From Actibacterium sp. (GTDB taxonomy: Bacteria > Pseudomonadota > Alphaproteobacteria > Rhodobacterales > Rhodobacteraceae): a stretch of 64,000 bases of DNA. The position numbers were made by a program, and so were the translations under genes. The notes under the pieces were generated by a model, which was not told where the DNA came from, made no database searches, and saw only the letters and a list, made by a program, of their open reading frames with translations. The stretch covers positions 1 through 64,000 of the forward strand of contig JADQCB010000007.1 in assembly GCA_016278325.1 (NCBI GenBank), written 5' to 3'. This document shows positions 1,999 through 39,902 of this stretch, in pieces (positions within the stretch are counted from its first letter, which is position 1; each line of letters begins with the position of its first letter).

Positions 1999-3008
1999 TC
2001 GAGATAATCCGCAAGGCTTAGCCGGGCCATGCGCGCGGTGATCGTATAAAGCATTTCCATGCGTCCGCGGGCGGCTTCCAGCCTGGTGGCGATGTCATAG
2101 GGCTCGGTTCCGATCAACTCGTTCCGGGTGATTTCGAGCAGAGAGGTTTGCGCGGCGTTTTCGGCCTGGATCGTCTCGATACGGTCCTGTGCCACGCCGA
2201 TATCGGCGCGCAGCGCTGTCAGGGGGCGTTCGGCTGTCAGAACCTGTTCGCCGCTGCGCCGGGCCAGTTTGCCGCGTTCCGCGATATTTCCGCTCAGCAC
2301 GAACCCGTCGCGAAGCAGTGCCGCCGTGGCCAGGGCGCGCAGCATGTCGCGCAATCCGGGATCCGCTGCCGTGATGTCCAGTGACAGGGTTTCACCGTCG
2401 GAAAGGCGGACCGGACCGGCGGGATCGGGCGAACCGGAATAGGCGAGGGTTTCGAACCCGCCGCCGGGCGTATCGAACCAGGCCTTGATCGCCATTATGA
2501 CCCCTTCGGCCGTCGTTTCACCGGCAACCGAACTTCGCAAGGCGGAAATGATCTGATCCGCGTCGGCAAGGGCCGCACTGTCCGTGGCAGAGCCCGAAAA
2601 CAGGCTGCGGCCGGCAAATCGCACATTCAGGGCATCCACGGCCTTTTCGAGCGCCGTGTGCGCCTGCAAGCCGGCATTGCGAAGAAGCGTCGCCTCGGGG
2701 GCAGCGCCGGCCAGCAACAGGTTCGAGCTGATTTCACTTGCCGCGTCGCCGATTCGCGTCAGGCTCTGTTGCATGACCTTGGTTGTCATTTCGGCCTCGG
2801 CGGTCGCGGTTTCATAGGCGCCCAGGGTTTTCAACCCGCGCTCGATCGAGGCCAGTGGCAGAAATGCGCCCGACAAGCGCTGTCCCGGATCCGCCGTCCT
2901 TCCTGTGGACAGTTCCTGGGTCAGGGTCGCGATCTGCTGCTTGAGCGCAACATTCTGCTTTCGCAACTGGAAGGAATGGGCAAGGTCGCCGACGGCGGTA
3001 ATGGTCAT
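1995..3008 (-). CDS. flgL: Flagellar hook-filament junction protein FlgL
   Basis: FlgL (HAP3) is the second junction protein between hook and filament and is exported by the flagellar type III system. The 337-residue product resembles flagellin at both ends: an N-terminal coiled-coil helix with LTQELSTGR, and a C-terminal helix (ARGRMEMLYTITARMARLSL). No cleavable signal is present, as expected for a type III substrate. It starts 3 bp after the flgK stop and overlaps flgI by 4 bp. The middle is divergent, as is common among alphaproteobacteria, so assignment rests on both ends and on the order K-L-I. Confidence 0.9.
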   Translation of the reverse strand: MTITAVGDLAHSFQLRKQNVALKQQIATLTQELSTGRTADPGQRLSGAFLPLASIERGLKTLGAYETATAEAEMTTKVMQQSLTRIGDAASEISSNLLLAGAAPEATLLRNAGLQAHTALEKAVDALNVRFAGRSLFSGSATDSAALADADQIISALRSSVAGETTAEGVIMAIKAWFDTPGGGFETLAYSGSPDPAGPVRLSDGETLSLDITAADPGLRDMLRALATAALLRDGFVLSGNIAERGKLARRSGEQVLTAERPLTALRADIGVAQDRIETIQAENAAQTSLLEITRNELIGTEPYDIATRLEAARGRMEMLYTITARMARLSLADYLE

Positions 3009-3011
3009 CAG

Positions 3012-4469
3012 TCAGATCCTGAGAAGGTTATCGAGCAGATCGTCGATCGTCTGGATCACGCGGGCATTGGCGGAATAGGCGCGTTCGACCTCCAGCAAGG
3101 TCTGCATCTCCTGGTCGGTATCGACGCCGCCTTTCAGTTCTGATGCGCGCAGGGCATCGCCCTTGGTGCGCGCGAAACCGAGCTCGGCCTCCGCGACCTG
3201 CCGGGCATGACCGGTTTGCGACAGGAATTCGCCGGCAAGACCACCGATACTGCGCGCGACATTGGAAAACCCGCCGGATGCCGCGGCGCGGTTTTCGCCC
3301 AGGGCCGCGGCAAAGGACTCAAGCAGGGTGCTGTCGCCCACCGGGCCCGGTGCAGCGGCACCCAGTCCGTCGCGCAGCCGCCAGGCCGCGCCGCCCTGCG
3401 CGGGGTCGGCGGCCGGGTTCAGCCGCAACCGTTCCGAAAGCCCGGTCTCGTCGGCCGGATCGAAGGTGGCGCCATCATCGGTGAACAGGCCCGGCGCCCC
3501 GGCCGCAAGCGTGGGGTCGAGACCGGGGGCCTGGAACCGCTCGGTCAGGTTGCGTGCCAGCGCATCCAGGTTGGCCTGGGCAGAGACGGCCGCGTCATCC
3601 CGCTGCCAGAAGGCGGCCGCGAGACTGCCGCCGGCGATCGCAGAGCGCGATCCGGCGGTCGCGACCGGGCGGCCATCCACGCTCAGGCCCGACAACCCGC
3701 CGCCGGCCAGGGTCATTTCCGGGACGATCAGGTTGGACGGGGTAAAATCGAAACGCGCGGGTCGGCCGTCCAGCAGCACCGCGCCGGTCGGAGAGTAGAT
3801 GGCGATTTCGCCGCGCGCGCGCTGAATGACCCGAAGGGGAACGATTTCGGCGATCTCGTCGACCACGTTCTGCCGTTGATCCATCAGCCCCGTGGCGTCG
3901 TTTCCGCCGCTCAGGGCCGTTCGGATCTGCATGTTCAGATCGTCGATCATCTTCAGCCGGCTGTTCAACTGCCCGACCTGTCGCGCGATGTCACGGTCGG
4001 CTTCCATCCGCAGGGTCTGGATCCGCTCCGAGATCGAGTTGAACGTTTCGACGACCGCGCCGGCCGCCCTGGCAACGGCACCCAGGCGGGTCTGTGAATC
4101 GGGACGGCTGGTCGCCTGAATCAGGCTCGATTCCAGCGCAGCCAGCCGATCGGCAAGCGAGTCGCCGCCGCCGGGAATGCCGATTGCCTGTTCCAGCCGG
4201 GCATGAAATGCCGCCCGGCTGTCAGCGGCGGCGGTCTCGGCATCGGCCAGGCGTCGATTGCCCAGAAGCACCGGATCGACCTGGCGGCGCACGCCGTCCA
4301 CATGGACGCCGGCGCCCGATCCGCCGACCGATTGCGCACTGGTTTCCAGCACCCGCCGGCCATAACCCGCGGTGCCGGCATTGGCGACATTGGACGAGAC
4401 GACCTCGGCCCGGCGCGCCGCCGCGCCCAACCCGGTCAGGGCATTGGCAAAGGCGCCTGAGATGCTCAT
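3012..4469 (-). CDS. flgK: Flagellar hook-associated protein FlgK
   Basis: FlgK (HAP1) is the first hook-filament junction protein. The 485-residue product begins with the rod/hook-type N-terminal motif (SGAFANALTGL, then SSNVANAGTAGYGRR) and ends with the matching C-terminal helix (LLEVERAYSANARVIQTIDD). This pairing of conserved ends around a variable middle is diagnostic of axial flagellar proteins. The ATG is preceded by an AGGGGG-type ribosome site. It follows flgE after 22 bp and is itself followed by flgL after 3 bp. Confidence 0.93.
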   Translation of the reverse strand: MSISGAFANALTGLGAAARRAEVVSSNVANAGTAGYGRRVLETSAQSVGGSGAGVHVDGVRRQVDPVLLGNRRLADAETAAADSRAAFHARLEQAIGIPGGGDSLADRLAALESSLIQATSRPDSQTRLGAVARAAGAVVETFNSISERIQTLRMEADRDIARQVGQLNSRLKMIDDLNMQIRTALSGGNDATGLMDQRQNVVDEIAEIVPLRVIQRARGEIAIYSPTGAVLLDGRPARFDFTPSNLIVPEMTLAGGGLSGLSVDGRPVATAGSRSAIAGGSLAAAFWQRDDAAVSAQANLDALARNLTERFQAPGLDPTLAAGAPGLFTDDGATFDPADETGLSERLRLNPAADPAQGGAAWRLRDGLGAAAPGPVGDSTLLESFAAALGENRAAASGGFSNVARSIGGLAGEFLSQTGHARQVAEAELGFARTKGDALRASELKGGVDTDQEMQTLLEVERAYSANARVIQTIDDLLDNLLRI

Positions 4470-9474: not shown

Positions 9475-9551
9475 TGGCGGCCCCGGCAGGATTCGAACCT
9501 GCAACCTATCCCTTAGGAGGGGATTGCTCTATCCGATTGAGCCACGGGGCC
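9475..9551 (-). tRNA. tRNA-Arg (anticodon CCU)
   Basis: On the minus strand the sequence folds into a full cloverleaf: acceptor stem GGCCCCG / CGGGGCC, an anticodon stem ATCCC / GGGAT around the loop CTCCTAA, and the T-arm GGTTCGAATCC. The anticodon CCU reads the rare arginine codon AGG. The 3' CCA is encoded at 9477-9475 after a G discriminator. The gene stands alone between the dioxygenase gene and a LacI-type regulator. Confidence 0.97.
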
Positions 9552-28125: not shown

Positions 28126-29622
28126 ATGTGGCCGCTGGACGGATTTCGAATTGCGGCGCGGCAAGGGCCGCAATACCCATCGGGCATGGTTTTTCGGATC
28201 ACATCCACAATCGGCCCTGTCCTGTTCCTCGATGATATCGAGAACGGCGTTTTGCGGCTGTCGGCCCTTTTCATCACCGCGCCCGACCAGCAACCGCCGC
28301 CGATCGAGGGCGCCAGCGGCACCGCCGCTGCCATGCCGCTGGCCCGGTACGACCACGCCACCGTCTGGCGGGCCCGGTTTTCGCTGCCGGGCGACCGCGC
28401 CTCCAGCTACCGATGGAACGGCGAGAGCTTCCGGGTTGCCGGGGATTTCACCGGCGACCTGCGCCTGGCCTATGTCTCGTGCAATGGCGAAGAGGTCGGC
28501 GACATGGCGCGCGAAGGATCGGAGCGCAATGCCATGTGGGCGCGTCTGCGCGAAAACCATCGCCGCCAGCCGCTGGCATTGCTGCTGCACGGCGGCGATC
28601 AGGTCTATGCCGACGAGGTCACGCAGGGCCATGACCTGAGCCATGACTGGCCGGCACGATTCGCGCGCGATCCCGCACCGGCCGCGCTGGACGATCTGCG
28701 CCAGCATCTGCGCGAACGCTTCGTCGAACGCTATTCCGCGCTCTACGCCGCGCCGGAATTCGCCTGGCTGGCGGCGCGCGTGCCCTCGCTCATGCAATGG
28801 GACGATCACGACATCTGCGACGGGTGGGGATCCTTGCGCCGGTCACGGGCCGAATCGGCGGTGGGCCAGACGCTGTTCGCGGTGGCACGGGAAAATTTCC
28901 TGATCTTCCAGCAGGCGGCCACCGAGAATGACCTGCCGGCCCGTTTTGCCGACCCTGCCGGGCAGCATCTCGGCTGGGGTATCCACGCCCCCGAACTGCG
29001 CATTCTCGCCCCCGATTTCCGGTCGGAACGCACGCGCCGCGATATCATGGGGCCGGGCGGCTGGGCGATGATGCAGGCCGAGGCGGAACGCCGGATGCAG
29101 GGCCACACGCTGCTGATGTCCAGCGTGCCCCTGCTTGGCCCGCGGCTATCGCTGCTGGAGGCGTTGATGGTCGTGATCCCGCGGATGCAGAAATACGAGG
29201 ACGACCTTCGCGACCAGTGGCAAAGCCGTGCCCATCGCGACGAATGGAAACGGATCTTGCGGCTGGTGCGCGACATGGCCCGCCGCGACGGGCATGACCT
29301 GACCGCCGTTTCCGGGGAGATCCATCTTGCAACGCGCGCGGTGATGGATCTGGGCGGCGGGCTGAACCTGCATCAGCTCGTGGCCTCCGGCATTGCCCAC
29401 CGCGCGCCCCCGAAAGCCTGGGCGCGGACCCTTGGCGCGCTTGCCTGGCTTGGCGAGGATCCGCTGCCCGGTCATCATATCCGGACTGAACGCCTGCCCG
29501 GACAGCGCGCCCGATACGTCGCCGAGCGGAACTATCTGCTGCTGGAGCGTGAATCGGGCATCTGGCGGGCCTGCTGGGATCTGGAGGAAAGCGGACCCAC
29601 CGAACCACTTGCCTTGCGTTGA
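28126..29622 (+). CDS. PhoD-like metallophosphatase
   Basis: The 498-residue product has the PhoD/alkaline phosphatase D core: LLLHGGDQVYADE, the metal site QWDDHDICDGWG, and SGEIHLATRAVMD near the C-terminus. PhoD enzymes are Ca/Fe phosphodiesterases and monoesterases, usually Tat-exported. Here no twin-arginine or Sec signal is visible, so a cytoplasmic location is likely, as in many unstudied family members. The start is uncertain: 28126 or 28186 (MVFRITSTIGPVLF); the latter fits the family N-terminus better but neither has a good ribosome site. Confidence 0.82.
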   Translation: MWPLDGFRIAARQGPQYPSGMVFRITSTIGPVLFLDDIENGVLRLSALFITAPDQQPPPIEGASGTAAAMPLARYDHATVWRARFSLPGDRASSYRWNGESFRVAGDFTGDLRLAYVSCNGEEVGDMAREGSERNAMWARLRENHRRQPLALLLHGGDQVYADEVTQGHDLSHDWPARFARDPAPAALDDLRQHLRERFVERYSALYAAPEFAWLAARVPSLMQWDDHDICDGWGSLRRSRAESAVGQTLFAVARENFLIFQQAATENDLPARFADPAGQHLGWGIHAPELRILAPDFRSERTRRDIMGPGGWAMMQAEAERRMQGHTLLMSSVPLLGPRLSLLEALMVVIPRMQKYEDDLRDQWQSRAHRDEWKRILRLVRDMARRDGHDLTAVSGEIHLATRAVMDLGGGLNLHQLVASGIAHRAPPKAWARTLGALAWLGEDPLPGHHIRTERLPGQRARYVAERNYLLLERESGIWRACWDLEESGPTEPLALR

Positions 29623-29784: not shown

Positions 29785-29813
29785 TCGACAAGTGGCGGAT
29801 CTGCCCATATTTT
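29785..29813 (+). promoter_or_regulatory. Predicted promoter of the cox operon (upstream of coxC)
   Basis: TCGACA at 29785-29790 (5 of 6) and TATTTT at 29808-29813 (4 of 6) are 17 bp apart. They would start transcription near 29820, giving a leader of about 65 nt before coxC. Imperfect inverted sequence covers 29804-29833, which could bind a regulator. Confidence 0.5.
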
Positions 29814-29840
29814 CCCGCCAGGGAGATATCGGGCGCAGTG

Positions 29841-29893
29841 GGAGGAGAAGGAAGCCGCGGGTCATGGGCCCCGCGGCTCGATCTGAATGCTGA
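29841..29893 (+). promoter_or_regulatory. coxC translation leader: distant ribosome site, 9-bp hairpin and mini-ORF
   Basis: The coxC ATG at 29887 has no Shine-Dalgarno directly upstream. A strong one (GGAGGAGAAGGA, 29841-29852) lies before a perfect 9-bp hairpin (29853-29861 with 29870-29878). The hairpin loop contains an ATG at 29864 that opens a nine-codon frame ending at TGA 29891-29893, overlapping the coxC start. Either the hairpin brings the ribosome site close to coxC, or translation of the mini-ORF couples into it. Both are inferences. Confidence 0.5.
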
Positions 29894-39868: not shown

Positions 39869-39902
39869 GCCGCGATTGCAACGAGACCGGACCGCCCGCC
39901 AT

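Follow-up and report, generated by a model that had tools for sequence, protein, structure and literature searches.

A candidate split ribosome-binding site with an intervening hairpin in front of the CO-oxidation regulator gene coxC of an Actibacterium genome

How does the ribosome find the start of coxC when the only strong Shine-Dalgarno (SD) sequence lies far upstream, on the other side of a stable hairpin? The question is raised by a leader in the window, i.e., the whole stretch of 64,000 nts analyzed here, which is part of one contig of a draft genome of 3.25 Mb. Downstream (3') of coxC lie genes for the flavoprotein (coxM), iron-sulphur-type (coxS, assigned by reading frame), and molybdopterin (coxL-type) components of CO dehydrogenase, and a CoxG-family gene is found farther downstream in the cox cluster. 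A gene for a PhoD-like phosphatase (28126-29622) is located immediately 5' of this cluster. As an in-frame TGA codon (29884-29886) directly precedes the ATG at 29887, the latter is the first possible start of coxC. No Rfam family matched the coxC leader at the gathering score, the only match in the window being a tRNA (9478-9551). The coordinates of all features are collected in Table 1.

Table 1. Features of the coxC leader and gene, with positions in the window
Feature	Position	Strand	Evidence or value
Promoter-like site TCGACA-17-TATTTT, sigma70-like	29785..29813	+	consensus match only; predicted transcript start ~29820
Shine-Dalgarno GGGAGGAGAAGGA with two anti-SD-complementary cores, GGAGG and AAGGA	29840..29852	+	anti-SD duplex energy -10.6 kcal/mol
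Perfect 9-bp hairpin AGCCGCGGG-TCATGGGC-CCCGCGGCT	29853..29878	+	-18.6 kcal/mol, z -2.94
Nine-codon mini-ORF MGPAARSEC, probably incidental	29864..29893	+	ATG GGC CCC GCG GCT CGA TCT GAA TGC TGA
Tail CGATCTGA, 8 nts, from stem to start codon	29879..29886	+	sequence; effective spacing across the hairpin, if bridged
coxC, MHYT sensor and LytTR DNA-binding regulator, 378 aa	29887..31023	+	Pfam MHYT PF03707 1.8e-24; LytTR PF04397 4.9e-16

At canonical spacing before coxC, the anti-SD duplex reaches only -2.4 kcal/mol, versus -10.6 kcal/mol for the far SD, the two cores of which end 41 nts (GGAGG) and 34 nts (AAGGA) before the ATG. Thus, a strong SD lies at a linear distance at which it would not function, and the canonical position is without one; before coxM of this cluster, by comparison, the SD is canonical. 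The AAGGA core adjoins the foot of the hairpin, whose arms (29853-29861 and 29870-29878) enclose a loop of 8 nts, TCATGGGC, and a further 8 nts separate the stem from the coxC AUG. A scan of 700 bases for promoters returned a single match (mean of 0.0 in shuffled sequences), and because this promoter-like site lies upstream of both, the SD and the hairpin would be contained in the transcript, which is predicted to extend ~65 nts ahead of the coxC AUG. In the predicted fold ensemble, the pairing probability of the stem core is ~1.0, the GGAGG region of the SD is unpaired with a probability of ~0.3-0.4, and the AUG is mostly open (~0.8 unpaired). With its MHYT and LytTR domains and its linkage to the cox genes, the gene is a CoxC-type regulator. 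Several statements of a preliminary description of this DNA, made from the sequence alone, are borne out by these results: the coxC ATG has no adjacent SD, a strong SD lies upstream, and the two are separated by a perfect 9-bp hairpin with an ATG in its loop.

Given its composition, the stem is beyond chance expectation, being matched in ~0.1% of shuffles: a stem of at least 9 bp appeared in the shuffled 34-nt spacer with P = 0.00125, and 2 of 200 dinucleotide shuffles of the 26-nt hairpin were equally stable. Taken over its full 91 nts, the leader shows no unusual degree of structure: its z is -0.79, and 37 of 200 shuffles fold equally well. The hairpin is unique in its own genome when zero or one mismatch is allowed. 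We also considered a dispersed repeat and rejected it: the next best copy has two mismatches, and reversing the pattern as a control yielded 26 matches per strand versus 21.

To place these values, we sampled 464 kb of the same genome, made up of the window and 20 stretches of 20 kb each, in which genes were predicted by a crude gene finder based on codon bias. The sample contains 53 stems of at least 9 bp with a loop of 3-10 nts, 20 of them outside the predicted genes. The 357 genes of the sample offer 1886 start candidates. A strong far SD is paired with a weak canonical one in 146 of them, at thresholds chosen after the window had been seen; a stem of at least 8 bp between far SD and start is present in just one of these 146, that of coxC. 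When the requirement was instead a spacer folding energy of at most -19 kcal/mol, coxC was joined by one other candidate, an alternative TTG start at 39876.

We tentatively propose, with a confidence just short of even, that translation of coxC may begin at a split (accommodated) ribosome-binding site of the type found in genes 25 and 38 of phage T4. The 30S subunit would pair with the SD at 29840-29852, and the adjoining 9-bp hairpin would remain folded on the ribosome, looped out as a structural spacer. With the stem folded, the spacing between SD and AUG would therefore be ordinary, the AAGGA core lying effectively 8 nts from the coxC AUG and not 34, and initiation would depend on the hairpin. 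According to the predicted fold, a stable structure lies wholly between SD and AUG and leaves 8 nts, within the 5-11 nts that such a site needs. The geometry thus fits the structure-assisted ribosome loading suggested in the preliminary description. The regulator would then probably be made constitutively, at an ordinary or low level, and regulated switching is not implied. Several observations run counter to this proposal: GC-rich spacers fold readily, the SD is unpaired to a limited extent in the predicted ensemble, the full leader has no unusual degree of structure, and it is not widely conserved.

The T4 sites resemble the coxC leader in having a strong but over-distant SD and an RNA hairpin in between that shortens the effective spacing. 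As described for genes 38 and 25 in PMC3014915, intervening structure reduces SD-AUG distances of 22 and 27 nts to 5 and 11 nts, respectively, and destabilization of the structure lowers initiation. These are phage genes with experimentally proven sites that are conserved in T-even phages, whereas coxC is a bacterial regulator gene with a GC-rich 9-bp stem and an ATG in the loop, known here from its sequence in one genome, or perhaps two. The thrS gene of Escherichia coli is, like coxC, a bacterial chromosomal gene. Its expression is autoregulated by its own product, and nothing comparable is indicated for coxC. As described in PMC3936740, a long hairpin is accommodated within the thrS ribosome site and stays folded there. 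The regulator itself has a characterized counterpart in Afipia carboxidovorans OM5, likewise an MHYT and LytTR protein within a cox cluster, where CoxC is described as a CO-responsive, membrane-bound repressor (PMC11347149). The subject of that work, as presented in the same source, is transcriptional repression of PcoxB by CoxC, and not, as here, translation of coxC.

We then asked how coxC begins in other organisms. A total of 184 coxC-like leaders were read, from 80 loci of named genomes (the best 80 of 584) and from further relatives, and 168 of them, including the window, are unique. Those that carry an SD mostly have GGAGG 5-15 nts before the start, and others lack an SD and look leaderless. 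In seven leaders, a TTGCAAA/TTGCCAA-like box and a TTGGTCAT-like box occur just before ATGGA; such boxes, together with the lack of an SD, are found in many MHYT-LytTR genes of Rhodobacteraceae and suggest leaderless transcripts. Linked coxM genes accompany 99 of the unique leaders, and 96 of these have a usable start. With thresholds again set after the window had been seen, a weak canonical SD and a strong far SD occur together in the window alone among the 96, and a stem of at least 7 bp between far SD and start occurs in 1 of the 96. At these loci, the leader of coxM has a canonical SD in 100 of 100 cases, none weaker than -5 kcal/mol. Two other leaders, L133 and L158, were examined as additional cases of the order SD, hairpin, and ATG, and were not counted because they have in-frame upstream starts (ATG at -18 and GTG at -24, respectively) at the usual spacing from the SD. 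Four Roseovarius leaders show an AGAGC...GCTCT inverted repeat with a variable interior, 30-65 nts before coxC and between GGGGAGG and the coxC ATG.

The nearest relative, Maritimibacter sp. 55A14 (two loci identical in sequence, L023 and L103), shares 70% identity and the gene order coxC-coxM-coxS. Its leader has a GAAAGGA core 36 nts before the ATG and, in between, a hairpin of nine pairs with one bulged base (about -21 kcal/mol; z -1.56 to -1.83, with -1.56 for the hairpin alone), as well as a possible weak proximal SD (-6.2). This leader may be read as mild support for the hairpin and counts against the mini-ORF, and it makes a weaker case than the window. The region around 2905-3000 of this locus contains, in order, a TTGACA/TTTCAT promoter-like pair, a 7-bp 5' hairpin, the exposed GAAAGGA, a second strong hairpin, and the coxC ATG, and the fold of 2940-3030 has a z of -2.45. 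Further searches for close coxC genes yielded no additional close relative; in another genus, 5 of 16 genomes encode a CoxC of 66-67% identity, and the SD of these genes sits within a short hairpin's loop, accompanied in L133 by the in-frame upstream start. Beyond the nearest relative, coxM-linked coxC genes have an ordinary SD or lack the strong far SD. The preliminary description had named the absence of stem and mini-ORF from homologous clusters as evidence against its reading, and such absence is largely what was found, the exception being the hairpin of the nearest relative.

The chief rival of the split site is an incidental hairpin: coxC would start weakly or independently of an SD, from an AUG in an open region, with GGAGG unused and the GC-rich inverted repeat present by chance or neutral. 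We regard this as a serious possibility, if not a probable one. It is plausible because 20 of the 96 coxC leaders have only a weak canonical SD (> -5 kcal/mol), so that another route of initiation is required there, and many coxC-like genes appear leaderless. Within the same genome, 17 of 357 genes are without any start having an SD better than -4, and some 50 comparable stems occur per 464 kb; the lack of conservation beyond the nearest relative is also in its favor. Against it stands the coincidence of strong far SD, weak canonical SD, and perfect stem of at least 8 bp, which only 1 of the 146 candidates of the sample shows. The other explanations rank lower. One of them, the second reading of the preliminary description, is a leader peptide coupled to coxC, in which the stem would be melted, nine codons translated from the ATG at 29864, and coxC re-initiated at its AUG after the stop codon at 29891-29893. 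We consider this unlikely. AAGGA does lie 11 nts 5' of that ATG, the stop is beside the coxC AUG, and a mini-ORF in a leader is able to raise translation downstream, as described for the axe-txe minigene (PMC8708949). The nine-codon frame itself is real, but its stop was said to overlap the coxC start and instead coincides with codons 2-3 of coxC; the coxC ATG (29887-29889) lies within the mini-ORF, ahead of that stop. Shuffling alone produces a frame of this kind, ending over the start, in 13% of leaders, and 12 of 158 coxC-like leaders (the window among them) carry one, so that its presence does not exceed chance; moreover, the ATG of the mini-ORF is located inside the hairpin loop. A conserved short ORF with a usable start was sought in the nearest relative and is absent there: the loop has no ATG, and the sole upstream ATG seen opens a long frame that overlaps coxC. 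Coupling to a leader peptide is thus not supported, and the suggestion that translation of the regulator responds to RNA folding or the state of the ribosome receives no backing from conservation.

An element acting at the level of DNA or transcription, either an operator bound by CoxC or a different regulator or a site of transcriptional pausing or termination, would account for a perfect inverted repeat that is intergenic and downstream of a promoter-like site, and it nevertheless appears very unlikely to us. Afipia CoxC is described as binding three TTNNNGCN direct repeats at 18-21 bp (PMC11347149), and no triple of direct repeats of this type exists at the coxC leader of the window. Nor does a T tract follow the stem, and no terminator is predicted at the site; both the terminator and the CoxC operator were rejected on these grounds, and the hairpin is not a dispersed repeat. 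Finally, the ATG at 29864 could be the relic of an N-terminal extension, a former start put out of frame by an indel. L133 reads MRRRANMLIYVYD from its in-frame ATG at -18 and has an SD 15 nts upstream of that ATG, as such a history would suggest; however, homology between the leaders of the window and L133 could not be demonstrated, and the nearer relative from Maritimibacter has no such ATG, so we find this explanation highly improbable.

A broader reading would be that the coxC ribosome site is built on a hairpin in several alphaproteobacterial lineages, with translation of the CO regulator then under structural control. The SD would lie either within the loop of a hairpin ending ~7-9 nts before the start (species of genus g387, Ruegeria, Oricola, and Jiella) or just upstream of such a hairpin (the window genome and Maritimibacter). 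From the comparisons below, we give this reading little credence. An SD in the loop of a short hairpin was seen in L133-L136, L104 (g387), L025, L053 and other Ruegeria loci, and L052/L090, with the hairpin within the last 30 nts before coxC and its 3' arm ending ~7-9 nts before the start; examples are CCGCG-AGGGGAGG-CGCGG, CACGC-GTCGGGGAGG-GCGTG, and ATCGAA-GAGGAGGAA-TTCGAT. Among leaders with GGAGG near the start, to which the counts were restricted, a stem of at least 4 bp around the SD is present in 24/56 for coxC, 4/91 for coxM, 6/47 for coxS, and 7/57 for coxL. The difference between coxC and coxM gave a Mann-Whitney p of 0.001, for sequences that are related and with a coxL control that departs from its shuffles as well; the mean mid-p against shuffles is 0.212 for the coxL control and 0.347 for coxC. 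In an earlier version of this test, p was <= 0.05 for 14.5% of 69 leaders. For Ruegeria-type leaders (30 of 32 distinct ones, two having been dropped for indels), three pairs are nearly invariant and a fourth pairs in 11 of 30; the observed pairing was reached by 86 of 2000 shuffles, and covariation is weak.

Ribosome sites split by a hairpin have precedents in a small number of phage and bacterial genes, to which coxC is a candidate addition; no report on the coxC leader was found among open-licence PMC papers. If the proposal of a split site is true, a chromosomal regulator gene would join the small group in which the ribosome site spans a hairpin that stays intact, and start-site callers based on the SD would miss such genes. 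The cox leaders also form a small natural set that varies in SD position, hairpin, and start codon. For the organism itself, a split site would mean that the amount of its CO regulator depends on a folded leader.
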